Source: Desulfuromonadales bacterium (GTDB taxonomy: Bacteria > Desulfobacterota > Desulfuromonadia > Desulfuromonadales > Geopsychrobacteraceae). Taken from it: a DNA stretch of 64,000 nt. This document shows positions 1,039 to 64,000 of this stretch, piece after piece. The notes beneath the pieces were generated by a model, which did no database searches, was not told the origin of the DNA, and was given only the letters and a program-made list of their open reading frames with translations. The stretch lies in the NCBI GenBank assembly GCA_019429255.1, contig JAHYIY010000006.1, positions 56,042 through 120,041 of the forward strand, in the 5' to 3' direction. Position numbers and translations under genes: made by a program. The stretch's first letter is position 1, and each line of letters starts with the position of its first letter.

Positions 1039-1048
1039 TAGTCAAAAT

Positions 1049-1191
1049 GTAACTATTCACTGCTGACCTTGCGCAGGGTCGGGGCTCCTGTGGCAAGGGT
1101 GTTTGTCGCCATGGATGGCGACAACAAGCGGTCATGGATGACGAAAAGCGTCCCTTGAAATAGGATCCCCGAGCCGGTGCTGAACAGATAC
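1049..1191 (-). mobile_element. MITE copy 1, short subfamily, with 8-bp target duplication
   Basis: This 143-bp element starts GTAACTATTCA (right end) and closes TGAACAGATAC (left end), and is inverted relative to copy 3. It is flanked by perfect 8-bp direct repeats GTCAAAAT at 1041-1048 and 1192-1199. Inside are a hairpin with stem GTCGCCAT/ATGGCGAC and a second with stem GTCAT/ATGAC, framed by long complementary arms. It belongs to the short form, carrying TTTTC where other copies have about 16 bases. It lies between mltA and the Nudix gene. Mobility is inferred from the target duplication; there is no coding capacity. Confidence 0.85.
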
Positions 1192-1252
1192 GTCAAAATA
1201 TTTGAACTCAGGAACCTGACCCCCATCCCGGCGTAGTGACTGGAGCAGATTG

Positions 1253-1693
1253 ATGACGGAACAACCTAAACATGTTCTGGTGACCAGCGGATTAGTCCGT
1301 AACGATGAGGGTCAGTTACTGCTGGTCAAGCATCGTCTGCGGGGGTGGGAGCTGCCCCAGGGGCGGGTGGAAGAAGGGGAGGGGCTGGTTTTCGCCTTGA
1401 GTCGCGAAATTCTTGAAGAAACCGGGGTGACCGTGAGTCATGCGCGGCTGGCGGTTATCTGGTCGAAGGTGAGTCATCCTGCCGCTGTTATTTTCTGTTT
1501 TGTTGCCCGCTATGCTTCCGGTAGCCTGCAGCCGAGTGACGAGACCCCTGAGGTCATCTGGTGCAGCGATGCCGACGCAAAACGGCTGGTGAGCCATCCG
1601 GTCAACCGCGATCGGATGGCATCAGTCTTTACTTATGCCGGCACCCTGAGATTACATAGCTATGCGACGGGACCCTATCGGGTTTTGAGCTGA
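1253..1693 (+). CDS. Nudix hydrolase
   Basis: A 146-residue single-domain Nudix enzyme that hydrolyses a nucleoside diphosphate linked to another moiety; the substrate cannot be told from sequence. The Nudix box is complete at about residues 39-61: G, five residues, E, seven residues, then REILEETGV, so the Mg-binding glutamates are present. The ATG at 1253 is preferred over the TTG three bases upstream because GGAG sits 8 bases before it. It lies 44 bp upstream of aceE on the same strand and could be co-transcribed with it. A general house-cleaning or RppH-like role is possible but not shown. Confidence 0.85.
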   Translation: MTEQPKHVLVTSGLVRNDEGQLLLVKHRLRGWELPQGRVEEGEGLVFALSREILEETGVTVSHARLAVIWSKVSHPAAVIFCFVARYASGSLQPSDETPEVIWCSDADAKRLVSHPVNRDRMASVFTYAGTLRLHSYATGPYRVLS

Positions 1694-1737
1694 TAGATTG
1701 CTTTACCTGACAGGCTTGCGAAAGGAGTCAGCTGGTT

Positions 1738-4425
1738 ATGAATGACGATAAACCAAAGACATCATCACAACATGTGCAGGAAATCGAGAATCAGGAATGG
1801 CGGGAGTCCCTCGATTATGTGCTTAAGGAGCATGGGCCTGAGCGAGTGCAGCAGCTTCTGCGCCAATTACAGATTCGTGCCCAGGAACAGGGGGTCAGTG
1901 TTCCTTTTACCGCCAACACGCCCTATATCAACAGTATTCCCCGCGCCCAGCAGCCGATTCATCCGGGCAATCAGGAGCTGGAGCGGAGAATCAAGTCGAT
2001 TGTGCGCTGGAATGCCATGGCCATGGTGGTGCGCGCCAACCGCGAATCAAGTGGCATCGGTGGCCATATATCAACCTACGCCTCGGCGGCGACCCTGTGG
2101 GAGGTGGGTTTTAACCATTTCTGGCGCGGGCGCACCGACGATTTTATCGGCGACATGGTTTACTTTCAGGGGCATGCCGCACCGGGGGTCTACGCCCGGG
2201 CCTTTTTAGAGGGGCGCTTAAGTGAAGATGACCTGAAGAATTTCCGTCGGGAGCTGGACCCGAAGGGTGGTCTGTCGTCTTATCCTCATCCTTTTCTGAT
2301 GCCTGATTTTTGGGAGTTCCCTACCGTTTCCATGGGGTTGACCGCCTTAAGTGCGATCTATCAGGCGCGCTTTAATCATTATCTGGTTGACCGCGGGCTG
2401 CGCAAGTCAAGCGGGCGCAAAGTCTGGGCCATGCTTGGTGATGGTGAAATGGATGAGCCGGAATCTTTAGGTGCCATCACCCTGGCGTCACGGGAAAAGC
2501 TCGACAATCTGATCTTTGTCGTCAACTGCAATCTGCAGCGTCTTGATGGGCCGGTACGTGGCAACGGCAAGATCATGCAGGAACTGGAAGCGGCCTTCCG
2601 CGGTGCCGGCTGGAACGTTCTCAAGGTGGTCTGGGGGGGAGATTGGGATCCTTTGCTGGAGGCAGACCGCTCCGGTAAGCTGGTCAAACGTATGGACGAA
2701 GTTCTTGATGGCGAGATGCAGCGCTATACAGCCACCAACGGCGCCCATGTACGCAACGATTTCTTTGGTCGTTACCCCGAGCTGCTGGAGCTGGTGAAGG
2801 ATTTCACCGACGAGCAGCTCGGTGCTTTAAGAAGGGGAGGCCACGATCCGGTCAAGGTGCATGCAGCCTACAAGGCGGCGGTGGAGCACAAGGGTTCGCC
2901 AACAGTGATTCTCGCTCAAACGATTAAGGGCTATGGTTTGGGTGAGGCAGGAGAAGGGAAGAACATCACCCATTCCCAGAAAAAACTCAACGAGGATGAG
3001 CTCAAGGAATTTCGTACCCGGTTCAATATCCCGATCAGTGATGATCAGATCGCCGCTGCGCCCTTCTACAAACCGGCGGATGACAGCCCGGAGATGCAGT
3101 ATCTTAAACAACGGCGTAAAGAACTTGGTGGATCCCTGCCGAAGCGTTTTTCCGGCAGTCAGCCGATGGCCTGTCAGACTGACTGGCTGGTACAGGAGTA
3201 CCTCGGCGGTTCAGGTGAGCGTGAGTTGGCAACCACCATGGCATTTGTCCATCTGCTGGCCAAATTGTTGCGGGATGATGAGATCGGCAAGTTGATTGTT
3301 CCTATCGTGCCGGACGAGGCACGGACCTTCGGCATGGAGGGGCTGTTCCGGCAGGCGGGGATTTACAGTCATGCCGGCCAGCTCTATGAGCCGATCGACA
3401 AGGGTAGTTTGCTGTTCTACAACGAAAAAAAGACCGGCTCCATTCTTGAAGAGGGGTTAAGTGAAGCCGGTTCCATGGCTAGCTTTATCGCCGCCGGTAG
3501 CGCTTATTCCAATAATCAGGTGCAGACCATCCCCTTCTATACCTTCTACTCCATGTTCGGGTTCCAACGCGTTGGCGACCTGATCTGGCAAGCCTGTGAT
3601 AGCCGGGCCCGCGGTTTTCTGATCGGTGCGACCGCTGGCCGTACTACCCTGGCCGGCGAGGGGCTGCAGCATCAGGATGGTCACAGCCAGGTGCTGGCCC
3701 TGACGCCGACCAAGATCAAGGCCTATGATCCGGCCTTTGCCTACGAACTGGCCCTGATAATTCAGGATGGCCTGACCCGCATGTATTGCCATCAGGAGGA
3801 TCTGATCTACTACCTGACGGTCACCAACGAAACCTACCAGATGCCTGCCATGCCAAAGGAAAAGGGGGTGCGCGAGGGAGTGCTCAAGGGGCTCTACCGG
3901 TTCCGTGGGACCGGACTCAAAGGACAACAGGCCCGGGTTCACCTGTTCGGTAGCGGCGCGATTCTGAACGAGGTGATCAAGGCGCAGACATTGCTGGAGG
4001 AAAACTACGATGTGGCTGCCGATGTCTGGAGTGTGACCAGCTACAAAGAGTTGTATCAGGATGCCATCGAGGTTGAACGCTGGAATCTGCTGCATCCAGG
4101 CAAGAAACCGCGTAAACCCTACCTTGCCCAGGTGCTGGAGAAAGAGGAGGGGATCTTTGTTGCTGCCTCCGATTATATGAAGGTGCTGCCGGCCGTTCTG
4201 GCCAAGTGGCTGCCCGGACCTATCCATTGTCTTGGGACCGACGGATTCGGTCGCAGTGACAGTCGTGAGCGCCTGCGTGACTTCTTTGAGGTTGATCAGC
4301 GTTATATCGCCCTGGCGGCGCTGTACCAGTTGGCGGAACAGGAAGGCGGCTCGATGAAAACGGTGCAGCAGGCTCTCAAGGATTTCAATATTGATCCCGA
4401 TAAATTAAACCCGCATCAGGACTAG
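1738..4425 (+). CDS. aceE: Pyruvate dehydrogenase E1 component, homodimeric type
   Basis: ThDP-dependent E1 of the pyruvate dehydrogenase complex: it decarboxylates pyruvate and acetylates the lipoyl group of E2. At 895 residues it is close to the usual length of AceE (about 890), the fused homodimeric form rather than alpha/beta PdhAB. The ThDP/Mg motif is visible as GDGEMDEPES followed about 25 residues later by NCNLQRLDGPV. An AAGGAG ribosome-binding site precedes the ATG. It is the first gene of aceE-aceF-lpd, with 10 bp to aceF. In a largely anaerobic lineage, such a complex suggests at least some aerobic or microaerobic acetyl-CoA formation; this is inference. Confidence 0.96.
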   Translation: MNDDKPKTSSQHVQEIENQEWRESLDYVLKEHGPERVQQLLRQLQIRAQEQGVSVPFTANTPYINSIPRAQQPIHPGNQELERRIKSIVRWNAMAMVVRANRESSGIGGHISTYASAATLWEVGFNHFWRGRTDDFIGDMVYFQGHAAPGVYARAFLEGRLSEDDLKNFRRELDPKGGLSSYPHPFLMPDFWEFPTVSMGLTALSAIYQARFNHYLVDRGLRKSSGRKVWAMLGDGEMDEPESLGAITLASREKLDNLIFVVNCNLQRLDGPVRGNGKIMQELEAAFRGAGWNVLKVVWGGDWDPLLEADRSGKLVKRMDEVLDGEMQRYTATNGAHVRNDFFGRYPELLELVKDFTDEQLGALRRGGHDPVKVHAAYKAAVEHKGSPTVILAQTIKGYGLGEAGEGKNITHSQKKLNEDELKEFRTRFNIPISDDQIAAAPFYKPADDSPEMQYLKQRRKELGGSLPKRFSGSQPMACQTDWLVQEYLGGSGERELATTMAFVHLLAKLLRDDEIGKLIVPIVPDEARTFGMEGLFRQAGIYSHAGQLYEPIDKGSLLFYNEKKTGSILEEGLSEAGSMASFIAAGSAYSNNQVQTIPFYTFYSMFGFQRVGDLIWQACDSRARGFLIGATAGRTTLAGEGLQHQDGHSQVLALTPTKIKAYDPAFAYELALIIQDGLTRMYCHQEDLIYYLTVTNETYQMPAMPKEKGVREGVLKGLYRFRGTGLKGQQARVHLFGSGAILNEVIKAQTLLEENYDVAADVWSVTSYKELYQDAIEVERWNLLHPGKKPRKPYLAQVLEKEEGIFVAASDYMKVLPAVLAKWLPGPIHCLGTDGFGRSDSRERLRDFFEVDQRYIALAALYQLAEQEGGSMKTVQQALKDFNIDPDKLNPHQD

Positions 4426-4435
4426 AGGATAGGTT

Positions 4436-5755
4436 ATGGCGATTGAAATAGTTGTCCCGCAAGTCTCCGATGGTGTTACCTCCGGAACGGTAATTTCTCT
4501 GGCGGTGGCGGTCGGTGATGAGGTGACGGAAGATCAGACCCTGCTGGAACTTGAAACCGATAAAGCGGTCGTGGCGATCCCGTCGCCACAGGCCGGAAAA
4601 ATCAGCGAGATCCGGGTTGCGGAAGGCGACCAGGCCGAGGTCGGTGCGGTGATCATGTTGTTGGAAGCTGCCGGTAAAGAAGAAAAAACGCCTGAGGTTG
4701 ATCGTGAAAATGATGAGCCGCAGAAAGACGTCGCTGCACAACCAGCAACTGCGCAGCGTCCGAAACCGTCTTCTTCCACTGATGAAGAAGAACAATCAGC
4801 CGACCAGCCCCCTCTCGATCTGACAACGCGGCGTAGCGCCGATCTGGTGGCCCCGGCGGCACCCTCGGTGCGACGCATTGCGCGCGAACTGGGGGTTGAT
4901 ATTTATCAGGTGCAGGGCTCCGGTCCCGGTGGGCGGGTCAGTGAAAAGGATGTGCGCGAGTTTGTCCGCACAACCATGGAGCGGGTGACTGGTGGGGTTG
5001 CGGTCAGTACCGGTGAATTCCGTGGTCTTCATGCCCAGCGCCTGCTGCCCGATTTCAGTCAATGGGGCAAAATAGAACGCAAACCCCTGTCACGGGTGCG
5101 CCAGGTGACCGCTGATGCCATGGGCTATGCCTGGTCGACTATTCCGATGGTGACCCAGTATGACCGGGCGGCTGTGGGTGCGCTGGAATCCTATCGGCAG
5201 GAGTACAACAAGACCCATCCCGATCAAAAATTGACCATGACCGCTATCCTGCTGAAAATCTGTGCGGTGGCGTTAAAGCGCTTTCCACAATTTAACAGCA
5301 GCCTCGACCTGGCAGCGCGCGAATTGATCTACAAAGACTATGTGCACATCGGTGTCGCGGTTGATACCCCCGGTGGCTTGCTGGTACCGGTTGTGCGTGA
5401 TGCGGACAGCAAGGGGATTGTTGCTCTGGCGGCCGAGCTTAACGAACTGGCGGAAAAAACCCGTGAGCGCAAAATCAGTCCGGTGGAGCTGGAAGGGGGC
5501 ACCTTTACCATCAGTAACCTCGGCGGAATAGGAGGTAGCGCCTTTACCCCGATTGTCTACGCACCCCAGGTGGCGATCCTCGGCGTGTCGCGTACCGAAA
5601 CCCGGCCGGTCTGGAACGGTCAGGAGTTTGTACCGCAGCAGATGATGCCCTTGAGCTTGAGTTACGATCACCGGGTGATCGATGGTGCTGATGGCGCACG
5701 TTTTCTGCGCTGGATTTGCGAGGCACTGGAACAGCCGCTTAACCTGGTGATGTGA
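4436..5755 (+). CDS. aceF: Dihydrolipoamide acetyltransferase (E2 of pyruvate dehydrogenase)
   Basis: Forms the core of the complex and transfers acetyl from the lipoyl arm to CoA. The 439 residues hold one N-terminal lipoyl domain (lysine in ETDKAVVA, about residue 44), a charged Glu/Pro/Ala linker, a peripheral-subunit-binding domain (about 138-172, PSVRRIARELGVD), and the acyltransferase domain ending with the catalytic SYDHRVIDGADG near residue 410. Only one lipoyl domain is present, against three in E. coli AceF; a second near-copy is fused to the next gene, lpd. The 201 bp between aceF and lpd contain a divergent MITE (copy 2). Confidence 0.96.
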   Translation: MAIEIVVPQVSDGVTSGTVISLAVAVGDEVTEDQTLLELETDKAVVAIPSPQAGKISEIRVAEGDQAEVGAVIMLLEAAGKEEKTPEVDRENDEPQKDVAAQPATAQRPKPSSSTDEEEQSADQPPLDLTTRRSADLVAPAAPSVRRIARELGVDIYQVQGSGPGGRVSEKDVREFVRTTMERVTGGVAVSTGEFRGLHAQRLLPDFSQWGKIERKPLSRVRQVTADAMGYAWSTIPMVTQYDRAAVGALESYRQEYNKTHPDQKLTMTAILLKICAVALKRFPQFNSSLDLAARELIYKDYVHIGVAVDTPGGLLVPVVRDADSKGIVALAAELNELAEKTRERKISPVELEGGTFTISNLGGIGGSAFTPIVYAPQVAILGVSRTETRPVWNGQEFVPQQMMPLSLSYDHRVIDGADGARFLRWICEALEQPLNLVM

Positions 5756-5775
5756 GGAAATTGTTGGTGGGCGGG

Positions 5776-5895
5776 TGTGGCATCGGGACTCCCATGCCAA
5801 GGGACGCGATTGTTCCCCGTAGGGTCGTCCATGACCGCTTGACTGTCGCCGTCCATGGCGACAGATACCCTTGGCACGGGAGCCCCGACACCACA
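5776..5895 (+). mobile_element. MITE copy 2, divergent, inside the aceF-lpd gap
   Basis: The core of the element is clear: complementary arms running TGTGGCATCGGGA... and ...CCCCGACACCACA, the GTCGTCCATGACC hairpin and the GTCGCC/GGCGAC hairpin. The outer terminal repeats seen in other copies are missing or unrecognisable, and no target duplication is seen. The two arms differ only by transitions, so pairing is largely kept. It sits between two genes expected to be in one operon and could modulate the downstream lpd message. It is probably an old copy. Confidence 0.7.
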
Positions 5896-5956
5896 CCGAG
5901 GCAAAGTGGTGGAAGATCCATTAAGCTGACATTCCTGGAAAGATAGAGAGTTTTTT

Positions 5957-7723: not shown

Positions 7724-7741
7724 CAGGCGAAATGATGGGAG

Positions 7742-8255
7742 TCAGCTTGTGAGCAGACTCAGGGTTTCCTGGGCGGCAGCTTCAAGGACCTGAGCGTGAG
7801 CCGCAAAGTCGAGAACGGTAATCCGTTCGCGGATGGTGCGGGCATTACGGGCGGCCAGAAGAAATTCTTCTTCCGTCAGGCGCAGTTCCGTCAAGGTAAA
7901 TCCGGCGCCTACGCGTCGGAACAGGTCGACAAAAAACTCCGGTGAACGTACTCCGGCAAAGAGTTGTTGTAACGCCGGCCACTGTTGGGGGAGTAAATCA
8001 TCGAACTGCAGCAGGGCTTTGCGCTTGTTGTTGAATTGCTGCTCAATTTCAGCCCGGTAACTGCCCCAGATAGCAGCAATGCGTCCGGCATCGGCGGCAA
8101 ATATCTGCGCCGCCCGACGCGGCAGTTCCGACCCTTCAAGCTTTGCCAGGCGGCGGTAGCAAGCGGCAGACAGCAGAATGCCCGCACCCACCTGCAGACC
8201 ATGGGTCGCGTTCTTGTTCCCACCCTGGAGGTCGCTGTGAATCGGACAAGTCAGA
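7742..8255 (-). pseudogene. Remnant of sn-glycerol-1-phosphate dehydrogenase (C-terminal part only)
   Basis: On the minus strand about 165 codons remain open and resemble the C-terminal helical half of the EgsA/AraM iron-alcohol-dehydrogenase family: THGLQVGAGILLSA (the metal-binding His region) and ARTIRERITVLDFAAHAQVL near the end, with a proper stop at 7742. Upstream of about 8255 the similarity stops, because the DNA is the 5' coding part of glpD on the other strand. The N-terminal NAD-binding half is therefore missing and no start signal is visible, so it is read as a decayed gene. Both proteins handle glycerol phosphates, so the junction may reflect rearrangement in a glycerol locus. 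The family call is moderate. Confidence 0.6.
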
Positions 8256-9856: not shown

Positions 9857-9888
9857 CAACGGCTGACACTCCGACCTATACTCCGCGG

Positions 9889-16420: not shown

Positions 16421-16686
16421 ATGTTGGGCTTTATAACTGTGGTCAGTTTAGCCGCAGGACTCCGGTTTCTGTTTCAGCGGATCGTCAGAATCGGAAGCAT
16501 GGCTGTGCAGGAACAGAAAAACGTGGTTGATGGTACGCTGATTTCAAACGAGAAGCCTAGCGCCGGCGTTAGGAAACTAAGGCAGCTCATCAGGAAAATG
16601 AACCTTTTCATCCTTTTAACTCACCTTTGTACTCTTTCAAATACATTGCTGAACATCTCGTTAACAGAATAAAAAGTCGTTTATTT

Positions 16687-16841
16687 GTATCTGTTCAGCA
16701 CCGGCTCTTCGGATCCTATATCAAGGGACGCGATTGTTTCCCGTTGGGTCATCCATGACCGCTTGTTGTCGCCATCCATGGCGACAAACACCCTTGCCAC
16801 AGGAACCCCGACCCTGCGCAAGGACAGTAGTGAATAGTTAC
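16687..16841 (+). mobile_element. MITE copy 3, long subfamily, with perfect 8-bp target duplication
   Basis: Reference copy, 155 bp, from GTATCTGTTCAGCACC to GTGAATAGTTAC. It is flanked by exact direct repeats GTTTATTT at 16679-16686 and 16842-16849. The right-hand duplication overlaps the last codon positions of the minus-strand cytochrome gene, so the element begins two bases beyond that stop codon and may form its transcript end. Internal hairpins: TTGTCGCCAT/ATGGCGACAA (10 bp, loop CC) and GGTCAT/ATGACC (loop CC). Confidence 0.88.
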
Positions 16842-16843
16842 GT

Positions 16844-17134
16844 TTATTTTACGTGACAGTCTTTGCAGCTGGTTGGCCCTTGTTGCTGTTCTTTGTGACA
16901 ACTGATGCACAAACCATGAAACGCGTCTTTTCTTTGCTTGTCCTCAATCCCTTGGACGGCGCTGTGACAACTTGCGCAATCCGTCCGGCTTTCATGGCTC
17001 AGGTGGTTAAAGGTGATCGTTCCAAGTTTCGTGGGGTACTGGATTTCAGCGGGGGCATTGCTGTCGGCAATAACCAGGGTTGCGACGGCAGAAACCAGAC
17101 TGACGGCGATGAGCAGGGCAAATAGTTTTTTCAT
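16844..17134 (-). CDS. Triheme c7-type periplasmic cytochrome
   Basis: A 96-residue exported cytochrome: signal peptide to about VIADS (residue 25), then three heme-binding CxxCH motifs, CASCH, CISCH and CKDCH. The phrase FNHLSH supplies the axial histidines as in cytochrome c3/c7 proteins. Size and three hemes match the PpcA-like family of metal- and electrode-reducing desulfuromonads, which carry electrons across the periplasm. A GGAGGAAA ribosome-binding site precedes the ATG. It is monocistronic: the 3' end abuts MITE copy 3 and no partner gene adjoins. Redox partners are unknown. Confidence 0.9.
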   Translation of the reverse strand: MKKLFALLIAVSLVSAVATLVIADSNAPAEIQYPTKLGTITFNHLSHESRTDCASCHSAVQGIEDKQRKDAFHGLCISCHKEQQQGPTSCKDCHVK

Positions 17135-23189: not shown

Positions 23190-23642
23190 ATGAAGACTGA
23201 TAACTTTGATGACATTTTGGAGCAGGTGGTTGACGCGGCGGAAAACGGCTCATTTCAACTTGCCATAACCTTCTTGAGTCAGGCTGGGGAATATGCCAAC
23301 AGTCCGTTGCTGCAAAGCTATCGGGCCTATTGTCTGGCTGGGCTCACGCGTGAGCGCCGGCAACAGCGCGAAGCCGTGATCCTCTGTCAGGAATCGATAA
23401 GGGCTGATTCTGCTAACTCGGTTCACTATCTGCTGCAGGGGCGGATTCTGCTGTTGATGGGGGATCGCAAAAATGCCATCAGGGTCTTCCAGGCAGGACT
23501 TAAGGTTGCGCCGAACCCTAAAATTATCGCTGAGATAAAACGCATCGGGATGCGCAAGACGGCGGTTTTTGAGAAGCTGGATCGCAATCATCCGTTGAAT
23601 GTTTACCTGGGGAAATTGTTCAGTCGCCTGGGATTCAGATGA
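23190..23642 (+). CDS. TPR-like protein, paralogue of the facing gene
   Basis: A 150-residue soluble protein with about three tetratricopeptide-like helical pairs (for example SVHYLLQGRILLLMGDRKNAIRVFQAGLKVAP). Its C-terminus is RNHPLNVYLGKLFSRLGFR. The protein read from the opposite strand just downstream ends RNHPLNRFLGKLLARLGLR and matches along the whole length, so the two are paralogues arranged tail to tail. The ATG at 23190 follows TTAGGA at 7-8 bases. Function unknown; TPR repeats suggest protein-protein contacts. The solitary end of a MITE lies three bases past the stop. Confidence 0.75.
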   Translation: MKTDNFDDILEQVVDAAENGSFQLAITFLSQAGEYANSPLLQSYRAYCLAGLTRERRQQREAVILCQESIRADSANSVHYLLQGRILLLMGDRKNAIRVFQAGLKVAPNPKIIAEIKRIGMRKTAVFEKLDRNHPLNVYLGKLFSRLGFR

Positions 23643-23645
23643 TTT

Positions 23646-23666
23646 GACCCGGTGCTGAACAGATAC
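23646..23666 (-). mobile_element. Solo MITE left end (remnant)
   Basis: On the minus strand it reads GTATCTGTTCAGCACCGGGT, identical to the left terminus of the full elements (closest to copy 4). Nothing else of the element remains. It sits in the 31-bp space between the two facing TPR paralogues, so a deletion involving a MITE probably shaped this junction. Confidence 0.75.
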
Positions 23667-26175: not shown

Positions 26176-26318
26176 GTATCTGTTCAGCACCGGGTCGGGA
26201 ATCCTATGTCAAGGGACGCTTTTCGTCATCCATGACCGCTTTTTGTCGCCGTCCATGGCGACAAAAAACCTTGCCACAGGACCCCCGACCCGGCGCAAGG
26301 ATAGTGCTGAATAGCAAC
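26176..26318 (+). mobile_element. MITE copy 4, short subfamily
   Basis: A 143-bp element from GTATCTGTTCAGCACC to GCTGAATAGCAAC, carrying the short TTTTC variant like copy 1. Arms GGGTCGGG and CCCGACCC pair exactly, and the TTGTCGCC/GGCGACAA hairpin is intact. No 8-bp duplication is present: the left flank is AAAAGTTA and the right flank GCACGCCG, so one side was probably rearranged. Confidence 0.82.
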
Positions 26319-26397
26319 GCACGCCGCGCTGCGCCGTCTTGTCATAAAGCAACTTTTTTAAGTTACTCAGAAGAAGTTACAAAAGTTAAACTCTTAT

Positions 26398-47275: not shown

Positions 47276-47450
47276 TTTACAGGCAGCGCCTCGCCAGGGT
47301 GTTTCGCCTGATCCCGCATGAAAATCGTTGAGGATGCTGCCCCGCGTGGTATTTCCGAAGATTTTCATCCCAAATAAGAGTAGCGCCTGGTTTGTGTCGT
47401 TCGATCAAACCGGGTCGCGGGTTGCTCTACCTCTTTATAAAAAAACAAAG
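47276..47450 (+). ncRNA. Candidate structured RNA, unknown type
   Basis: Starting at the predicted transcription start, GGCAGC-G-CCTC (47282-47292) pairs with GAGG-AT-GCTGCC (47330-47341), enclosing a CAGG/CCTG hairpin. ATGAAAATC (47318-47326) pairs with GATTTTCAT (47360-47368). The two helices interleave, so they form either a pseudoknot or alternative folds. A third hairpin, CCTGGTTTG/CAAACCGGG, follows at 47386-47415. No known riboswitch or RNA family is recognised. It could be a small RNA or the proVWX leader later split by MITE insertion. The end point is arbitrary. Confidence 0.4.
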
Positions 47451-47606
47451 TAACTATTCAGCACTATCCTTGCGCAGGGCCTTTGGCTCCTGTGGCAAGG
47501 GTGTTTGTCGCCATGGACGGCGACAACAAGCGGTCAGGGATGACCCAACAGGAAACAATCGCGTCTCTTGACATAGGATCCGAAGATCCGGTGCTGAACA
47601 GATACA
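47451..47606 (-). mobile_element. MITE copy 5, long subfamily, with perfect 8-bp target duplication
   Basis: A 156-bp element from GTAACTATTCAGCAC to GTGCTGAACAGATAC, in the opposite orientation to copy 3. It is flanked by exact repeats AAAACAAA at 47443-47450 and 47607-47614. Arm sequences GGGCCTTTGG and GGATCTTCGG replace the GGGTCGGG seen in other copies. It lies in the proVWX leader region and may separate the upstream promoter from the genes. Confidence 0.88.
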
Positions 47607-47774
47607 AAACAAATAAGTTAGTTCCTGCCGCTGCAGGCGATTTCTTTTCGGGGTCTGTTATACCCGCAAAAAAATTCCGTCAGAAATTTCTGTTTCGTCA
47701 GGAATTGTTACGGACGTCCCCTTTTTTCAAGGGAAACGTCCTGTAGACATTGCATTCCCATGACAGGAGCACAG

Positions 47775-50970: not shown

Positions 50971-50980
50971 AAAAAATTTC

Positions 50981-55694: not shown

Positions 55695-55734
55695 TGACGG
55701 CGGCGCTATCGGATTGAGATACTGTTAATTGAGT

Positions 55735-55889
55735 GTGTCTGTTCTTACACCGGATTGGGAATCCTATGTCAAGGGACGCGATTGTTTCCCGCCGGGTCAT
55801 CCATGACCGCTTGCTGTCGCCGTCCATGGCGACAAACACCCTTGCCACAGGATCCCCGACCCTGCGCAAGGGCAGAGCTGAATAGTTAC
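55735..55889 (+). mobile_element. MITE copy 6, long subfamily
   Basis: 155 bp from GTGTCTGTTC to GAATAGTTAC with the full hairpin set. The left end has drifted (TTCTTACACC for TTCAGCACC). Flanks AATTGAGT and AATACATT match at only five of eight positions, so a target duplication is uncertain. It occupies the divergent promoter region between the DUF2868 and hydrolase genes. Confidence 0.82.
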
Positions 55890-55976
55890 AATACATTTTC
55901 ATTGTGCCGGAATCATAACAAAAAACCGCCGGTTGCGACAGCCTGTTGCTGCAACGTCTTACCCGGGAGGTTCATC

Positions 55977-56726: not shown

Positions 56727-56781
56727 CAGGATTTTTATGGGGCTGATAAAGGGTATTTGCTCGGCGTCGGGTCGGGGTGGC

Positions 56782-56794
56782 GCTGAATAATTAC
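56782..56794 (+). mobile_element. MITE right-end remnant at the kinase stop codon
   Basis: GCTGAATAATTAC matches the right terminus GCTGAATAGTTAC with one change. Read on the minus strand it is GTAATTATTCAGC, and its TAA (56791-56793) is the stop codon of the sensor kinase gene. The GTCGGGTCGGGG just outside resembles arm sequence. The short length makes this tentative. Confidence 0.45.
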
Positions 56795-59775
56795 GATGAA
56801 CGCAGGGTTAATGCCGCGCTGAGTTCGTTGAGATCAAAAGGTTTAGCCAGCACCGCACAAAATCCGTGTTGCCGATAATTAGCCATAATCGGATCCTGAG
56901 AGTAACCGCTTGACACAACAATGCGGGCGTCAGGGTCTAGGGCAAGAATTTCCTGTGCTGCTTCTTTGCCGCCTTTGCCACCGGGGACGGTGAGGTCAAG
57001 AATTGTCAAACAGATGGGAGGTTCTTTGTCTAGATATTCCCGATACAGACGAACGGCCTCTTCTCCGTCAGCCGCCGCCAGCGATTCCAAACCGAATTCC
57101 TCGAGCATCAGACAGATGGTCTGGCACACCGGTTCCTCATCATCCATCACCAGCACCTTGCCCTGAAGTCTGTTGTTCGCAAGCTTTTCAGCTTGGACTT
57201 TGAGCTCCTGTCGTTTTTTCGCTGAGGCTGGCAGGAAAATGCCGAAGCTGGTGCCTTGTCCAGGTGATGAGTCAACCTGAATGTGGCCTTCATGTTTACT
57301 GATAATTGAGTGAACGATAGACAACCCCAGGCCGCTGCCCTGAGGTTTGGTGGAAAAGTAGGGGTCAAAGACCTTGTCGATGATTTCAGCGGGGATCCCC
57401 TCACCCTGATCGCTGATGCTCACCCGTATGTATTGTCTGGCGGGATCAAGAGGTGTGCCGACTATTTCATCCGCATCAGCAACAGCGCAGGAGACGGCAA
57501 CAACCCCTCCTTTCGGCATTGACTGTACGGCATTAAGGATCAGGTTCTGAATCACCTGACTGATCTGATTGATATCGACATCCACCAGCGGCAGTGCATC
57601 GGCAAAATCGTATCGGCAGGATACTTCTGCCCCATGGAGAATGAAATCTGTTGAATCCTTGATAATTTCCAGCAGAGAGGCTGTTTGTCTGATCGGTTGC
57701 CCCCCCTTGGCGAAAGTCAGGAGTTGTCTGGTCAGATCGCGGGCACGCAGGGACGCTTTGGTCGCATCTTCGAGGCGTTTACGGGTTTTTTCCGCGAGAT
57801 TGGAATCCAGTAAAGACAGATCGATATTACCAAGAATCGCGGAAAGCATATTGTTGAAATCGTGGGCTATACCGCCGGCCAATAAACCGAGGGACTCAAT
57901 TTTTCTGACCTTCTCGAGTTCACGTTCGAGGCGATATTGATCGGTGACATCACGGAATACCAGTACCACGCCGATGGTTTCCCCACTACTGGTGATAATG
58001 GGTGCACCACTGTCAGCGATACTGCGCTTTTCTCCATCGCGGGATATAAGCGCAGTATGGTTCGCCAGGCCAACTGTCTGCCCCGAGGCAAGCACTTTTT
58101 TCACCGGATTTTCGCAGGGTGCGCCGCTCAGCTCATTGATGATGTTGAAAATCTCATCAAGGGAACGACCTGTTGCTTCGTTGTTGTTCCAGCCGGTGAG
58201 TTGTTCGGCAATTGGATTCATCCGCATTACTCGACCATTGGTGTCGGTGGTGATGACCGCGTCCCCAATGCTGTCGAGGGTGACGGCGAGTTGCTCTTTT
58301 TCGGCGGCAAGGGCCCGCTCGGCTTCTTTTTTGTCAGTGATGTCGGTCGCTATTTCAAGCCGTACCGTTCGCCCGTCGACCCAATTGATGGCTCGATCTA
58401 TGATGTAGTACCAAAGCTGGTTTCTGGTGTTATGAAATTCCCAGGTATGGATGCCGGCAGGTTGTCCTTGCGCGTCAATCAATAAATGGTTCGTACAAAA
58501 AGGGCATGGCCCTGATTGATCCGATTGAATTGCCCGCCAGCAGACCTGGCCGGTGACATCACCAAAAATCTTTCTGCCATGGCGGTTAATAAAAAGAACT
58601 TCGTAGGTCTGCATGTCGGCGACGTAGACCAGCGCATCAAGGCTGTCCATAATCAGGCGAACGCGCGCTTCACTCTCCCTTAAGTTGTTGTGGTTGGCCT
58701 TGATCTTGGTTGCCATTTCGTAAAAGACATCGGTCAGTGTTGCTATTTCCCTTGGGGCAACACGAATAGATGGCCGCTCGGGGAGGGCTCCGGATGCTAG
58801 ATCGCGGCTGAACTCGGCAAGGGTTGTTATCGGCTTGACCAGGGTGACACGGCTCATGCGCCAGGCCAGGAACAAGGTTGCAATCATGGCGGCGGCCAAG
58901 AGCAACAGATTGCGTGTCAGAATGGAGTTGGCGGATTGGAGAATTTCCTGCTCGGAGATGCCTGCCCATACGTAGGCATAGGCAGGTGTGTCTGGATTCA
59001 GACTGATGGGTTCAAAAGCGATGACACGTTGCGTGCCATCCGACCCGCGGCTTTTGAATAATCCTGTTTCCATCGCCGCTTGGGCCTTATTCCAGGCTTC
59101 TTGTGAAACGGGTTGTCCGATCGGGTTAGTGTCCGGGCGTGTGGGGGCATAAAAAAGCCGGATACCCTGATGATCTGTAATCGCAATTAGGGATTGATCG
59201 GAGAGTTGAGGAATATCCTGCAAAGTCGAAAAGCGTGAGAGATTAACGGCGGCGGTTAATACTCCACGGACTTTCCCGTCGACAGTTCTGACCGGGTAAG
59301 CAAATGCTAAAGCGGGTTCAATGATACCGACTCGTGCGATGATGTATTCACCAACAGCAAAATCATTGCCGGCAATGGCTTCGTTAAAGTGCTTGCGATC
59401 CGCCAGGTTGATGCTTTCAAAGGGAAAGGCAGCAGCTAACACATCACCGCTTAAGTCAGTCAGGGTGAAGTTCTGAAAATCGGGATTCTGTTTGATCAGA
59501 GATTGAAATATCTTTTCGCCGGCAGCGAGGTCAAAGGCCTGGATTTCCGGCAGCAGCGCGAGGGTAGAAAGGATGCTACGGCTGGTATTGACAAGATCCA
59601 GCTGTGCTTGTGCCATACTGTGGGTGAGGAGTTGAACGTTTTTTTCAGCAGCTTTAATGGCGATTTGCCGTTGTTCAAAACCGCTAAAGAGCAAAATGCT
59701 GAAGGCGGGAATCAATGCGATAATCAGCAATAGAGCAAGATTTCTGCCGATGGATCCCTCGAGCCAACACTTCAT
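56791..59775 (-). CDS. Hybrid sensor histidine kinase with dCache, HAMP, two PAS and receiver domains
   Basis: 994 residues. An N-terminal helix (about 10-32), an extracytoplasmic double-Cache sensor (to about 285), a second helix and HAMP follow. The first PAS domain has VCWRAIQSDQSGPCPFC, a Cys pair often seen in deltaproteobacterial sensors; the second PAS (LDSIGDAVITTDTNG) precedes HisKA (GGIAHDFNNMLSAI), a HATPase (GSGLGLSIVHSI) and a receiver (Asp in LTILDLTVPGG, Lys in LAKPFD). No HPt or output domain is present, so a partner is needed. The ATG at 59775 is preferred over longer frames. The signal is probably a small organic molecule. Confidence 0.9.
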   Translation of the reverse strand: MKCWLEGSIGRNLALLLIIALIPAFSILLFSGFEQRQIAIKAAEKNVQLLTHSMAQAQLDLVNTSRSILSTLALLPEIQAFDLAAGEKIFQSLIKQNPDFQNFTLTDLSGDVLAAAFPFESINLADRKHFNEAIAGNDFAVGEYIIARVGIIEPALAFAYPVRTVDGKVRGVLTAAVNLSRFSTLQDIPQLSDQSLIAITDHQGIRLFYAPTRPDTNPIGQPVSQEAWNKAQAAMETGLFKSRGSDGTQRVIAFEPISLNPDTPAYAYVWAGISEQEILQSANSILTRNLLLLAAAMIATLFLAWRMSRVTLVKPITTLAEFSRDLASGALPERPSIRVAPREIATLTDVFYEMATKIKANHNNLRESEARVRLIMDSLDALVYVADMQTYEVLFINRHGRKIFGDVTGQVCWRAIQSDQSGPCPFCTNHLLIDAQGQPAGIHTWEFHNTRNQLWYYIIDRAINWVDGRTVRLEIATDITDKKEAERALAAEKEQLAVTLDSIGDAVITTDTNGRVMRMNPIAEQLTGWNNNEATGRSLDEIFNIINELSGAPCENPVKKVLASGQTVGLANHTALISRDGEKRSIADSGAPIITSSGETIGVVLVFRDVTDQYRLERELEKVRKIESLGLLAGGIAHDFNNMLSAILGNIDLSLLDSNLAEKTRKRLEDATKASLRARDLTRQLLTFAKGGQPIRQTASLLEIIKDSTDFILHGAEVSCRYDFADALPLVDVDINQISQVIQNLILNAVQSMPKGGVVAVSCAVADADEIVGTPLDPARQYIRVSISDQGEGIPAEIIDKVFDPYFSTKPQGSGLGLSIVHSIISKHEGHIQVDSSPGQGTSFGIFLPASAKKRQELKVQAEKLANNRLQGKVLVMDDEEPVCQTICLMLEEFGLESLAAADGEEAVRLYREYLDKEPPICLTILDLTVPGGKGGKEAAQEILALDPDARIVVSSGYSQDPIMANYRQHGFCAVLAKPFDLNELSAALTLRSS

Positions 59776-59950
59776 GCAAAAGCCCCCGGCGTGGTTTATG
59801 GTGCGCAAACTTTTTATATAAAACGATTTTTCGCATACTAGCATCTGTTTAACGCAACTCCAAATATTTATTGTAGTCACTTAATGCTTGCCGTGCCATG
59901 GGTAGCGTGGCTATACTTATAAAACTAAACTAATGTTGTGGTCGGGTCGT

Positions 59951-61969
59951 ATGTCCCAGGATTCATTTCTTATTGTTAAGCAATATCCGCAGCCGCCGGA
60001 GCGGTTTGAGGATTTTCTGCGTCTGCTGTTCGAACGTCACCAGCTCGACATGTTTCAGGGTCGTCAGCGGCTGCTTGGCCACAGCCTGGCCCAGCTGGCA
60101 CAGGGGGCGCGCAACGAGCTGGAACAGATCTCGGCATCCCTGTCCGAAGCAGGTCATGTTCATTGGCTGATAGACCCGGTACCGCCTGCTTTTGCCCCCC
60201 GACGAATCTATGGACTCGAAACCTCCAGCAGCGGGGTGGTGTTTGCCTGCCGGGATGAAGAGATCGAGTTTGCTCAAGGTACAAGTGTTCTGGCGGTGCT
60301 GGCTGATGTCTCTGGGGGGCTGGCGGACAAGCTCATGGCACGTATACTGGCCGGCAACGCCTACCGTGGACGTGAGGCGATGCAAGCTGAAGGCCCGCAG
60401 CAACTGTTCAGCATGATTCTCCAGGGACAACCTGTTCTTGATTTCTATCGCCTCGACGAAAACAAAAAAATAACTGCAGCGGTGCGGGTCTTCCCCGGGC
60501 GCTTCAACCCCCAGGGGCTGGGCGAAGCCGCCACCTTGAGCAGTCGCAAAAATCTTGAAGCGCTGCTTACATTGATGGAGGAACAATCCGCCGCTTTTCA
60601 ACTCCATGTCGATCTCGGGGTGGCCCTGTTGCCGGGTTGTCAGTTGCGCCGCGCGGATAAAAATGATCAGGATGCCCTGCGCCATAACCTCAATCGCATG
60701 ACCCGCTATGGCTGGTTGATGGCCGATCTGTGGCGCCATGGTTCACTGCCGCGCCGGACCGGCGGCAACCTGAATCAAAATGTAGGACCAGGCGGGTTGG
60801 GAACCCTGCTGGCGGCCCCACTAATGGCCAGCGGAGAAATAGACCGGGAAGCAACTGTGGGGGCGCATCCCCTGATGGATGAATTGAGGGATGACATTAC
60901 CGCCGCTACGGGTGATCCTGACAAAACCGGATCGAACAACCGGCAGAACCTTGCGCGGCGGTCAACGATCCCGATGTTGCCGGCGCCTCCGCCAAATTCC
61001 CCCGTGGCCTGGACCGCACAACGCATCTGGACACTGATCTTAGTTGCTGGTGGTTTTATTGTCTTCTTCCTGCTGCTACTGGCTGATCGCAGTGATCTGA
61101 TTGACCAGATCGCTTACCACAGTATTGCTTCCGGTGCGGTGCCCTTTGTTCTGGCTGTTTTGTCTTCTGGTTATGGATTTTACCATCTGCGCATCAAACG
61201 CAAGATCGAGAATACCCCCACCAGCCGGATCCGCTCCGTTGCCATGGGAATGGTAGAGGTCAAGGGCAAAGCCCTGCGCAAGTATGCCCTGGTGGCCCCC
61301 ATGTCGCATACGCCCTGTGTGTACTATCGCCTGACCCGCTATCGCAAGGACAAAAATAACCGGTGGCAGGCGATCAGTGTCACCTCCAGCGATAGCGCTT
61401 GTTTTTTTCTTGAAGATGGCACCGGTCGCATCGAAATCAATCCTGCCGGTGGTCGGGTACGTGCCGGAACCCGGCAGGAAGGTTTCCCCGGTCAGGTCGG
61501 CCTGACCCGTTTTGATTCCGATCAGACGGAAAAATGGCAAGAAGAGATTATTGTTGAAGGGACCCTGCTCTATGTCCTCGGTTTCGCATCTAACAAGCCT
61601 GCAGAAGGTGAATCTTTGCGTGAAGAGGTGCAGAAATCGCTCCGTGATCTCAAACAGGATCCATCACGTTTAAAGCAGTTTGATCTTGACGGTGACGGAA
61701 AAATCTGTGTTGATGAATGGGATGCGGCGCGGGCCCAGATGGAAGAAGAGATCTACCATCAGCGGTTGATCCAGCACAGTCAGCAGCGCCGCCGCCAGGA
61801 AGATCATATCGTCATCGGGCGCCAGCCCGGGCGGCCGCTGATTATCGCTGAAACCCACTGCGAGACCCATTTGACTGGAAAATATCGCAACACGGCAATT
61901 GGTTTATTATTGTTAAGCACCCTCTTGACCGGGGGATCCATCTATTTACTGCTAAATTACATACAATAA
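59951..61969 (+). CDS. GIDE-domain membrane protein with EF-hand and unknown N-terminal half
   Basis: 672 residues. Residues 1 to about 340 match nothing I recognise; a Pro-rich linker follows, then two membrane helices (about 359-378 and 392-412), a GIDE domain (about 420-560, TSRIRSVAMGMVEVKGKAL), an EF-hand loop FDLDGDGKICVDEWDAA (about 576-590) and a final helix (647-670). GIDE domains occur in mitochondrial E3 ligase MUL1 but bacterial ones lack the RING, so a ligase activity is not implied. It is followed by lemA after 33 bp, a frequent pairing. The start codon is uncertain (59933 or 59951). Confidence 0.75.
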   Translation: MSQDSFLIVKQYPQPPERFEDFLRLLFERHQLDMFQGRQRLLGHSLAQLAQGARNELEQISASLSEAGHVHWLIDPVPPAFAPRRIYGLETSSSGVVFACRDEEIEFAQGTSVLAVLADVSGGLADKLMARILAGNAYRGREAMQAEGPQQLFSMILQGQPVLDFYRLDENKKITAAVRVFPGRFNPQGLGEAATLSSRKNLEALLTLMEEQSAAFQLHVDLGVALLPGCQLRRADKNDQDALRHNLNRMTRYGWLMADLWRHGSLPRRTGGNLNQNVGPGGLGTLLAAPLMASGEIDREATVGAHPLMDELRDDITAATGDPDKTGSNNRQNLARRSTIPMLPAPPPNSPVAWTAQRIWTLILVAGGFIVFFLLLLADRSDLIDQIAYHSIASGAVPFVLAVLSSGYGFYHLRIKRKIENTPTSRIRSVAMGMVEVKGKALRKYALVAPMSHTPCVYYRLTRYRKDKNNRWQAISVTSSDSACFFLEDGTGRIEINPAGGRVRAGTRQEGFPGQVGLTRFDSDQTEKWQEEIIVEGTLLYVLGFASNKPAEGESLREEVQKSLRDLKQDPSRLKQFDLDGDGKICVDEWDAARAQMEEEIYHQRLIQHSQQRRRQEDHIVIGRQPGRPLIIAETHCETHLTGKYRNTAIGLLLLSTLLTGGSIYLLLNYIQ

Positions 61970-62002
61970 TCTTCCCATCTTACCTGAAAAAGGAGTTTAG
62001 TT

Positions 62003-62572
62003 ATGACTGGTTGGATTACATTGGGGGTGTTGTTGCTGCTGTTGGTTGCAGTGATTGTTTACACCATCATCATCTACAATGGCTTTATCGCCCTGAAAAA
62101 CACCATCAGCCAGGATTGGAGCAATATCGACGTGCTGTTAAAACAGCGCTACGATGAATTGCCCAAGTTGATCAAGGTCTGTGAAGGCTATATGCAGCAC
62201 GAGCAGCGAACCCTTGAAGCGGTGGTCAAGGCGCGCTCCATGGTCAATTCGGCACGCACCGACGAGCAGCAGCTGCAGGCGCAGAACATGCTGACCGATA
62301 CCCTGAAATCCCTGTTCATGGTGGTGGAACGCTACCCCGAGCTCAAGGCCGATGCGGGTTTTCGCCAGCTTAGCTACCGGATCACCGAAATCGAAGATCA
62401 GATCGCTGACCGGCGCGAACTCTACAATGCCTCGGTAACCATCTACAACACCCGGCTCGGACAATTTCCCGATCTGGTGGTTGCCAACATGTTCAAGTTT
62501 CAACCGCGCACTCTGTGGATTATTGATCCCGAACATCGTCAGGATGTCAGCGTGAGCTTTGCTGCCGGTTAA
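62003..62572 (+). CDS. lemA: LemA family protein
   Basis: 189 residues: one N-terminal membrane helix (about 4-26) and a long coiled-coil/helical domain with YNGFIALKNTISQDWSNIDVLLKQRYDELPKLI split across the family pattern and LGQFPDLVVANMFKF near the end. The function of LemA is not established; it often sits beside TPM- or GIDE-domain proteins, as here. AAAAAGGAG precedes the ATG. A hairpin terminator follows. Confidence 0.92.
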   Translation: MTGWITLGVLLLLLVAVIVYTIIIYNGFIALKNTISQDWSNIDVLLKQRYDELPKLIKVCEGYMQHEQRTLEAVVKARSMVNSARTDEQQLQAQNMLTDTLKSLFMVVERYPELKADAGFRQLSYRITEIEDQIADRRELYNASVTIYNTRLGQFPDLVVANMFKFQPRTLWIIDPEHRQDVSVSFAAG

Positions 62573-62590
62573 AGTTTTTGCGCGATGCAG

Positions 62591-62637
62591 CCGACAAGTA
62601 CAAGGACGACCGGGTTTTGACCCTGGCTTGTCGGTTT
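62591..62637 (+). terminator. Hairpin terminator after lemA
   Basis: CCGACAAG (62591-62598) pairs with CTTGTCGG (62627-62634), enclosing an inner GGGT-tttg-ACCC hairpin, followed by TTTGT. It is placed 19 bp after the lemA stop. The T-tract is short, so efficiency may be moderate. Confidence 0.5.
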
Positions 62638-62671
62638 GTATGGTTCATTGGGCAGGGCTCAGGGCATTGTT

Positions 62672-63166
62672 ATGGCATTAGACTATTACAGATTACTGGG
62701 GATTCCGCCTGACGCGGATCAGCAGCGGATCAGAAGTGCCTACCGCAGTCTGGCCAAGCGTTGTCACCCTGATACCAATCGCGGCTCGGAAGCGGCAGCT
62801 GAACTCTTCCGTCAGGTCAACAACGCCTATCGGATTCTTTCCGACCCGGCGCGGCGGGTGCGTTACGATGAAGAACTGGCCAAACGCAACCAGCGTCAAG
62901 CCGCTGCCACTGCGGTTAAACCAGCGTCGAGCCTTGATCCGGCACAAAAGTTCAGCCGCTTTGTCAATTCGCTGCTTGATGCTATCTTTGCTCCGGACGC
63001 GGTTCCGGTGGCACCAACACCAGTTCGTCCGGTAGTTGCCAAACCGAATAAAACCCCCTCGTTTAATTTTTTCTATCACCGTGCTCTGGAAAAAGAAAAA
63101 CCCCAATATCGCCGCGGCAGCGATGGAGTTTTTCGCAAAGTACCGCGCAAGAAACCACCTGCTTAG
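62672..63166 (+). CDS. J-domain (DnaJ-like) protein
   Basis: 164 residues. The N-terminal J domain (about 1-68) has DYYRLLGIPPDADQQRIRSAYRSLAKRCHPDTN, with the HPD triad that activates DnaK. The rest lacks the Gly/Phe region, zinc fingers and client-binding domains of true DnaJ, so it is a short co-chaperone with an unknown adaptor tail. ATG 62672 gives the conserved start; its ribosome-binding site is weak. The target is unknown. Confidence 0.88.
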   Translation: MALDYYRLLGIPPDADQQRIRSAYRSLAKRCHPDTNRGSEAAAELFRQVNNAYRILSDPARRVRYDEELAKRNQRQAAATAVKPASSLDPAQKFSRFVNSLLDAIFAPDAVPVAPTPVRPVVAKPNKTPSFNFFYHRALEKEKPQYRRGSDGVFRKVPRKKPPA

Positions 63167-63263
63167 TTTCCTTTCACGTCAATCCGCCGCCTCGATTTGC
63201 GCTCCAGCCCCCAATGCGGCTATGATTCCCTTCTAAAATGACCAAATCTCAACAGGAGTTTTT

Positions 63264-63452
63264 ATGGAAGATGAATGGGCGCAATTAAAAATGTGTGAAC
63301 TAAAGGCCAAGGGTCTGATGGAAGAGATCGATCGCCGCTCAAATAAACCGACGGTTGTCTGTGGTAAATGCGGTGCCAAAGCCAATGAGGCAGAGCATCT
63401 GCATAACCCGCGCCCCATGGCAAAAAAGTTTTCCGACAATTTATGGGGGTGA
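63264..63452 (+). CDS. Small protein with CxxC/His cluster
   Basis: 62 residues, mostly helical and charged in the first half, then VVCGKCGAKANEAEHLHNP, a Cys pair followed by a His pair, suggesting one bound zinc. CAGGAG precedes the ATG, so it is probably real. Its stop codon overlaps the thioesterase start (TGATG), so translation is coupled. Function unknown. Confidence 0.65.
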   Translation: MEDEWAQLKMCELKAKGLMEEIDRRSNKPTVVCGKCGAKANEAEHLHNPRPMAKKFSDNLWG

Positions 63453-63871
63453 TGGTGCAGGAATATCTTGATTTTTTTCGCGCTAACGATCATTTTGCCC
63501 GGCATTGCGGGTTTGAACTGCTCGAAGTAAAGCCCGGTTTTGCCACCGCGAAGATGCTGATCCAGCCATTTCACTTTAATGGCGCTAATACCGTTCACGG
63601 TGGTGCTCTGTTTGCCCTGGCCGATTTTGTTTTTGCGGCGGCGGTGAACAGCCGCGGGCAACTGGCACTGGCAATCAATACCAGCATGGCGTTTATTAAC
63701 GCCGCTTTTGCTGGAACCCTTATCGCTACGGCACGGGAGGTTTCCTGCAATCGGCGGCTCGGCGTGTACCAGGTTGATATTCATGATGAACAGGGGCAAT
63801 TGATTGCCCAGTTTCAGGGAACGGCGTATCGCAAAAACGAGTCGCTGCTGTCGGAGGTTGAGGAAGGGTAG
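63452..63871 (+). CDS. Hotdog-fold thioesterase, PaaI type
   Basis: 139 residues (or 142 from an ATG at 63443). The HGGALFALADFVFAAA segment is the catalytic helix of PaaI-like acyl-CoA thioesterases, with Asp as the likely catalytic residue, and GxxxTAKMLIQPFHFN precedes it. Coupled to the small zinc protein upstream by TGATG. Its stop codon TAG falls within the start of MITE copy 7 (GTAG). The acyl-CoA substrate is unknown. Confidence 0.85.
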   Translation: MVQEYLDFFRANDHFARHCGFELLEVKPGFATAKMLIQPFHFNGANTVHGGALFALADFVFAAAVNSRGQLALAINTSMAFINAAFAGTLIATAREVSCNRRLGVYQVDIHDEQGQLIAQFQGTAYRKNESLLSEVEEG

Positions 63872-64000
63872 TGGTTCAGCACCGGGCCTTTGAATCCTAT
63901 GTCAAGGGACGCGATTGTTTCCCGTTGGGTCATCCATGACCGCTTTTTGTCGCCGTCCATGGCGACAAAAACCCTTGCCACAGGATCCAAAGGCCCTGCG
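63868..64000 (+). mobile_element. MITE copy 7, long subfamily, cut by window end
   Basis: The left end reads GTAGTGGTTCAGCACC (reference GTATCTGTTCAGCACC). Arms GGGCCTTTGAATCC and GGATCCAAAGGCCC are fully complementary apart from one base, and the TTTTGTCGCC/GGCGACAAAA hairpin is intact. The element continues past base 64000. It adjoins and includes the thioesterase stop codon. Confidence 0.82.

Follow-up and report, generated by a model that had tools for sequence, protein, structure and literature searches.

A family of miniature transposable elements with 8-bp target duplications, a likely ISBst12-group driver and a conserved core predicted to form two GGA-loop hairpins

Miniature inverted-repeat transposable elements (MITEs) are usually seen as passive deletion products. 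The families of them treated in PMC3189936 and PMC9769881 are tied to families other than IS66, the text of a MITE review (PMC10969869) never mentions IS66, and among the open-licence papers listed in searches for both subjects, titles and abstract openings yielded no MITE family tied to IS66. Within the ISBst12 group of IS66, ISDge4 of Deinococcus geothermalis is described as an element with a single open reading frame (ORF), ends GTGACTACTCAGCA/GTAACTGCTCAGCA and an 8-bp repeat, and it has been observed transposing (PMC12898284). Among structured RNAs, TwoAYGGAY was reported in 2010 from the human gut, gamma-proteobacteria and Clostridiales (PMC2864571) and was proposed in 2014 to bind CsrA because it matches the CsrA motif twice (PMC4333381); the GGA-loop hairpins of CsrB/CsrC/RsmZ-type sponges bind CsrA (PMC4333381, PMC11934962). 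Here we describe MITE copies in a stretch of 64,000 nucleotides (the window, G000:C43:56042-120041) from a 2.74-Mb draft genome of 61 contigs, of the same genus as Pelovirga terrestris. They were inserted with 8-bp target duplications, have ends like those of ISBst12-group elements and carry a core, absent from a preliminary description of the window, that is predicted to form two hairpins and recurs in the order. By order we mean the 136-genome grouping of the genome set searched; NCBI has Pelovirga in Geobacterales, Geobacteraceae.

Target duplications and empty sites

The repeats of the window are genuine MITEs with 8-bp target duplications, and they belong to a family of at least 102 paired copies in their own genome. 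The ends are GTATCTGTTCAGCAC and GTAACTATTCAGCAC, the most frequent left end (53 of 102 oriented copies) and right end (20 of 102), respectively. With up to one mismatch, GTAACTATTCAGC matched the genome at 137 places and GTATCTGTTCAGC at 139, against none and one for the reversed controls. The first 100 matches of each, together with 44 DNA matches, gave 139 clusters, which were retrieved except for an edge cluster covered only in part (C8:18940, L059); the MITE counts given here are those among the matches listed. From 186 candidate end pairs, 125 were non-overlapping, 119 passed an end filter and 102 fell into the three size classes counted, namely 141-148 bp (32 copies), 150-158 bp (61) and 55-60 bp (9), the 17 pairs of other sizes being excluded from the copy counts. 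With 7 copies in its 64 kb the window is denser than the genome, whose 2.74 Mb hold 102 paired copies or 139 end-match clusters. As befits a MITE, the element is short, and none of the frames tested in its 143-, 155- and 156-bp copies shows a codon-position signature; the GC content of the scored copies lies between 0.46 and 0.69.

Perfect 8-bp duplications flank 49 of the 102 paired copies and a further 21 show one mismatch, which brings those with at most one mismatch to 70, as against 0.06%, 0.49% and 0.55%, respectively, when the flanks were re-paired at random. The length is sharply defined, because identical flank pairs numbered none at 4-6 bp, two at 7, 49 at 8, two at 9 and none at 10-12. 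Since 47 of the 49 perfect duplications have distinct sequences, nearly all of them represent separate insertions. The duplicated sequences are A/T-rich (73%, versus 54% in the flanks) and the second base outside the duplication is A or T in 91% of cases. The palindromic sequence, together with the strong fold of one copy (z -5.4), might suggest REP- or ERIC-like repeats or terminators rather than transposons; this reading, which we regard as practically untenable, is refuted by the exact 8-bp duplications and by the empty sites found in relatives.

Two of the window sites are empty in the congener G002. At the site of the 47450 copy the flanks join there with a 7-base overlap of the BLAST matches, and the 8-mer at the junction, read by eye as the MAFFT alignment misplaces the right flank, agrees with the duplication at seven of eight bases. 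The 55735 copy is absent from G002, where 8 bases separate the flank matches, and also from G001. In G003, taken as P. terrestris M08fum, the site of the latter copy (C33:250144-250287) holds an element of the 143-bp type where the window holds one of the 155-bp type, a switch for which conversion by another copy or an internal alteration at the site would account.

The copies in the window, located by a covariance model built here whose training set included five of the seven window elements, are as follows.

1049-1191, plus strand (the GGA-loop strand): MITE copy, 143-bp type; duplications gtcaaaat at 1041-1048 and 1192-1199
5775-5906, minus strand: old MITE remnant, terminal repeats lost
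16687-16841, minus strand: MITE copy, 155-bp type; duplications gtttattt at 16679-16686 and 16842-16849
23612-23666, plus strand: 55-bp remnant or short form, weak match to the model; end GTATCTGTTCAGCAC intact at 23666 (minus strand), no duplication
26176-26318, minus strand: MITE copy, 143-bp type; right side adjoins a second repeat, GCACGCCG...
47450-47605, plus strand: MITE copy, 156 bp; duplications aaaacaaa at 47442-47449 and 47606-47613; site empty in the congener G002
55735-55889, minus strand: MITE copy, 155-bp type; duplication decayed; missing from G002 and G001, while G003 holds a 143-type copy at the site
63868-64000, minus strand: MITE copy truncated at the contig end; same place occupied in G003

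All seven related elements of the preliminary description were thus recovered, its 47451-47606 being off by one base. Its three copies with perfect and mutually different 8-bp repeats (1049, 16687 and 47450) are those listed with duplications above, whereas the flanking 8-mers mismatch at six of eight bases around the 26176 copy and at three of eight around the 55735 copy. Insertion by transposition, which it had claimed from these three, is borne out by the 70 of 102 copies with at most one mismatch and by the empty sites. Both the further copies that it expected elsewhere in the genome, 49 of them perfectly duplicated, and the empty targets that it expected in relatives, at 47450 and 55735 in G002, were found.

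Some arrangements are unusual. The second repeat (GCACGCCGCGCTGCGCCGTCTTGTCATAAA...) directly adjoins three MITE copies with a GTTGC-type right end, at 26319-26350 of the window, after 45181 in G000:C11 and after 34938 in G000:C50, and with the MITE it looks like a composite of two repeats. At G000:C13:2781-3248 (L063) three differing copies of 154, 143 and 155 bp stand in tandem, each preceded by the same 8-mer aaataatg; the row may have arisen by repeated insertion at one target or by recombination between copies. Another copy has an Rfam tRNA match about 30 bases away (L016 1396-1467, G000:C20:47298-47369). A typical copy (L024 4695-4848) lies in a contig filed as a metagenome-assembled genome of Anaerolineaceae, which belong to Chloroflexota, by contamination or horizontal transfer. 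Plasmids and phages gave no match to the one 155-bp copy used as query, nor did viral contigs to the core pattern.

IS66 elements of the ISBst12 group as probable driver

The family is likely mobilised by an IS66 transposase of the ISBst12 group, to which both the termini and the length of the duplication point. G008, which belongs to the same family, has an IS66 transposase ORF of 472 amino acids that fills most of a 1,723-bp element with GTAACTATTCAG at both ends; the ORF product matches Pfam DDE_Tnp_IS66 (PF03050, 3.9e-46) and NCBIfam transpos_IS66 (1.5e-85). Relatives of this transposase were located in 5 of the 136 order genomes (6 places) and in 5 of 395 genomes drawn from the phylum (9 places). 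At 12 of the 15 places (6/6 in the order, 6/9 in the phylum) MITE-like termini stand on both sides of the single-gene IS66 transposase, one MITE-like end was located at each of the remaining three, and six places show perfect 8-bp duplications (L085, L087, L172, L173, L175 and L177). These autonomous elements have one TnpC gene, measure 1.57-1.83 kb and end in GTAACTATTC[AT][GC]C. A search for ends in plasmid records, made independently of the MITE letters, found an inverted-repeat pair with an 8-bp duplication in four of six records, namely around ISGst1, ISGka4 and elements of Deinococcus wulumuqiensis and Chlorohelix; their ends are of the GTAAC or GTATC type and MITE-like. In most elements of this kind examined, here and in Geobacillus, Deinococcus and Chloroflexota, the ends resemble GTAACTATTCAGC, and a terminal signature for the ISBst12 group is now supplied. 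One element of the group (L177 1147-2979, in G295) has a doubled left end, the two being 75 bp apart, and its perfect duplication fits the outer one.

The preliminary description had proposed an IS66 origin and mobilisation in trans. The origin stands insofar as the termini and 8-bp duplications match single-gene ISBst12-group elements; it fails for classical IS66 (tnpABC), rejected as driver because its ends in the related genomes G019, G008, G012 and G001 read GTAAGCG, unlike those of the MITE. Also set aside was the IS66 gene of P. terrestris (G003:C17), a classical TnpC next to a TnpB-like ORF, as read from the ORFs, with no clear ends. As for mobilisation in trans, the ends and the duplication support the driver group, but the driver itself was not found in the own genome, and on that account we infer this mode of movement.

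Several observations tell against the assignment to the ISBst12 group. The own genome yielded no PF03050 IS66 transposase. ISBst12-type TnpC was found in none of the four genomes of the genus and in 5 of the 136 order genomes, four of which also hold the MITE. The flanks of the G008 element agree at only six of eight bases, and a model of the MITE core and interior found no match in the 15 loci with autonomous elements or in four classical ones, which makes the MITE type II in the terms of PMC10969869. Assembly gaps cannot account for every missing driver, because G049, a single contig with at least 23 MITE copies, holds just a short IS66 gene fragment; probably the driver has been lost, or comes and goes. 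The missing gene in the own genome and the fragment in G049 could also be taken to mean that a transposase of another family with 8-bp duplications moves the MITE. We consider this very improbable: ends and duplication length equal those of ISBst12-group elements of this phylum, Bacillota, Deinococcota and Chloroflexota, and no other transposon with MITE ends was noticed, though no systematic search for other transposases was made. In the explanation that we prefer, an ISBst12-group TnpC would bind the shared 13-15 bp ends and insert the MITE at A/T-rich sites, the driver having since been lost or visiting only transiently.

A core conserved in stems and loops

Across distant genera the core takes the form CAAGGG...TGTCGCC-ATGGAY-GGCGACA...CC-ATGGAY-GG...CCCTTG, with variation. 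Its parts in the first window copy, all on the plus strand, are the following.

1094-1099: 5' side of the core stem, CAAGGG, pairing with 1152-1157 (CCCTTG), from the sequence and alignments A2 and A4
1103-1124: core hairpin 1, 8-bp stem and loop ATGGAT, with GGA at 1113-1115, as predicted by the consensus across genomes
1131-1142: core hairpin 2, with loop GGA at 1136-1138, as predicted by the consensus across genomes
1152-1157: 3' side of the core stem

A model (R1) built from 26 copies matched 44 of the 136 order genomes at E 0.001 or better, in 16 of 53 genera and seven families; the search scores at most 23 places per genome, and the per-genome copy numbers are therefore lower bounds. The conservation of the core is real, and it is seen in covarying stems as well as in the GGA of the loops. 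In the consensus fold of alignment A4 (18 copies from 18 genomes) 18 of 35 pairs show changes on both sides, and the double-change cells number 92; shuffles give 26.4, with none of 500 reaching the observed value, and slid partners give 0-16. A structure drawn beforehand from the 1049 copy gave 68 such cells on A4 (19.9 shuffled, 1-15 slid) and 78 on the first alignment, A2 (31.8 shuffled, 5-21 slid). Among the 30 best copies, one per genome, GGA occupies both loop positions in every one while the neighbouring loop letters vary, and in 19 the flanking 8-mers differ at no more than one base. By a simple stem search, 28 of the 30 have two or more GGA hairpins on the GGA strand, and none has them on the other strand. 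Within the own genome, 86 of the 93 longer copies (7 outliers dropped) diverge by 1.5-1.9% in the stem and 2.3% in the loop of hairpin 1, by 3.2-4.7% in hairpin 2, by 3.7-5.0% in the ends and by 7.8% over the whole element, which makes hairpin 1 the most conserved of the regions measured.

These figures have to be read against several points that weaken the case for a selected RNA fold. The A4 copies are the best R1 match of each genome and hence biased toward the model, three of the 18 (the 1049 copy, one from G049 and one from G022) were also in A2 and in the model training, the A4 consensus fold was derived from the same alignment used for counting, and the shuffles ignore the relatedness of the genomes. 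Among the own-genome copies alone (57 and 29) there was no covariation excess. By a strict loop pattern 61 of the 86 own-genome copies keep both loops, 23 one and 2 neither. Folds of single sequences leave both GGA free in just 22 of the 30 best copies, and the two hairpins merge in those of the 1049 copy, G001, G002 and G003, where 3.3-4.9 kcal/mol would be needed to free them.

A coding role of the core was rejected, as 57 copies (143-, 155- and 156-bp) show no codon-position signature in six frames. The strongest competitor to an RNA function is a plain IS66-type MITE whose core is a by-product, its palindromes being kept by the behaviour of DNA hairpins (template switching, conversion). 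This account agrees with the explanation that we prefer on the MITE and its driver and differs only on the core, and we place it a little short of an even chance. It is in line with the missing codon signature and within-genome covariation excess, with the occurrence of the 155 type and, in P. terrestris, the 143 type at one site, as copy conversion would give, and with two results given below, namely that the GGA strand is unbiased with respect to genes and that the presence of CsrA does not follow the MITE. Yet the repair of palindromes is expected to preserve stems and not loop letters, whereas GGA stands in both loops of all 30 best copies; that hairpin 1 is the region least diverged within the genome also speaks against it. 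An RNA role of the core seems to us about evenly balanced; the core would then have been retained because its RNA serves the element or the host.

Forms without the core bear on another possibility, in which the core would serve transposition itself as a site where TnpC or a host factor binds or pairs. Core-less forms span 36-78 bp, several of them with 8-bp duplications. Those of 57 bp share an internal junction at C5:6922, C14:5917 and C23:26138, with two, no and no mismatches in the duplication, and the same junction recurs at one P. terrestris site; forms of 69 bp occupy three G022 sites, with perfect duplications at all three. Because the junctions recur at several sites with duplications, these short forms most likely moved as such, and the core thus seems dispensable for movement; short forms seen at a single site may be deletions in place. 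Conservation through the order within a mobile element is what a transposition site would predict, but these recurrent forms and the lack of any match to the core model in autonomous elements make such a role rather unlikely. A covarying, RNA-like core with conserved loops, kept across the order despite spreading core-less forms, hints at selection on a cargo.

Likeness to CsrA-binding RNAs and comparison with known systems

The outer stem enclosing two AYGGAY-loop hairpins recalls the TwoAYGGAY RNA, and this arrangement was found in the consensus fold of 18 copies and in the loop letters of 30. Of 19 loci scanned with the Rfam model (RF01731), 8 gave an end-to-end match to the MITE on its GGA strand. 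In a whole-genome search the Rfam model matched 10 of the 136 order genomes at E 0.01 or better, all of them MITE-positive, and none of 14 control genomes. As to CsrA-binding RNAs in general, the trait of paired GGA hairpin loops on one strand is present, as predicted hairpins, in 28 of the 30 best copies. In Geobacter sulfurreducens, CsrA influences biofilm and electron transfer (PMC11934962, PMC13407953, PMC5568370); no CsrB/C-type RNA is characterised there and FliW has been proposed as antagonist (PMC13407953), and three CsrB/C-type RNAs have been predicted (PMC11934962, PMC5568370).

Much here counsels caution. The TwoAYGGAY matches of the locus scan are weak (26-36 bits, E 0.045-9.2, for a cut-off of 43 bits), a scan of the window at the Rfam gathering thresholds found no family, and the genome-search scores of 31-39 bits also lie below the cut-off, with one exception. 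The exception, at G095:C170:91-223 (L216), reaches 50.9 bits, but its flanks are mirror images and it may be an assembly palindrome or artefact, which leaves the sole score over the cut-off doubtful. Other Rfam families also match single copies weakly (SR1, F6 and mir-642), SR1 on L221 with an E of 0.0047, better than TwoAYGGAY, and F6 on L223; the likeness consequently rests on recurrence and loops and on no single score. The own genome has one csrA match, but CsrA does not track the MITE: 11 of the 17 genomes tested that have the MITE and 4 of the 8 that lack it gave a CsrA match, a comparison covering 25 of the 136 genomes, several of them incomplete. With respect to neighbouring genes the GGA strand lies in the same orientation in 68 cases and in the opposite one in 75. 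Genes were called roughly, from ORFs within at most 700 bp of flank, and 4 of the 93 copies were excluded for want of a strand call; a cis-regulatory role by gene orientation was rejected since there is no bias. The core is also, unlike the CsrB/CsrC/RsmZ sponges, without a known promoter or transcript.

Within the preferred explanation, the most plausible role of the core would be to present its two GGA loops to CsrA, a dimeric regulator. The bolder model of a transposable CsrA sponge, in which an ISBst12-moved MITE lineage carries a hairpin pair of the TwoAYGGAY type through the order, appears unlikely to us at present. Up to about a hundred copies per genome would titrate CsrA or put CsrA sites into new transcripts, which would account both for TwoAYGGAY, an orphan RNA of Rfam, and for the CsrB-type RNAs that are uncharacterised in the Geobacter group. 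Should the core bind CsrA, a mobile element would be titrating a global regulator; TwoAYGGAY would then be placed in a context, and there would be a testable candidate for the CsrA antagonists of the Geobacter group.

Compared with known systems, the MITE resembles the ISBst12 group (ISDge4, ISGst1, ISGka4) in its GTAACTATTCAGC-type terminal repeats and 8-bp duplications; unlike those elements it is free of genes, and it has only about 13-15 terminal bp in common with them. It is like the type II MITEs of PMC10969869, among them Chunjie of Geobacter uraniireducens and the QMITEs, in its length of less than 500 bp, its terminal and direct repeats, its A/T-rich target, an IS similarity confined to the ends and its size variants, and differs from them by a structured core conserved across the order. 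Relatives may be held in the repeat tables of Geobacter and Pelobacter (PMC2700814, PMC2996986, PMC3543383). With TwoAYGGAY the core shares the outer stem around two AYGGAY-loop hairpins, but in the order of Pelovirga these are borne by a mobile element, and all scores except that of one doubtful copy lie below the cut-off. Like the CsrB/CsrC/RsmZ sponges it presents GGA-loop hairpins on one strand, but it has just two loops, in many dispersed copies. Taken together, the repeats form a confirmed MITE family whose driver group is indicated by ends and duplication and whose core keeps its pairing and GGA loops across the order.

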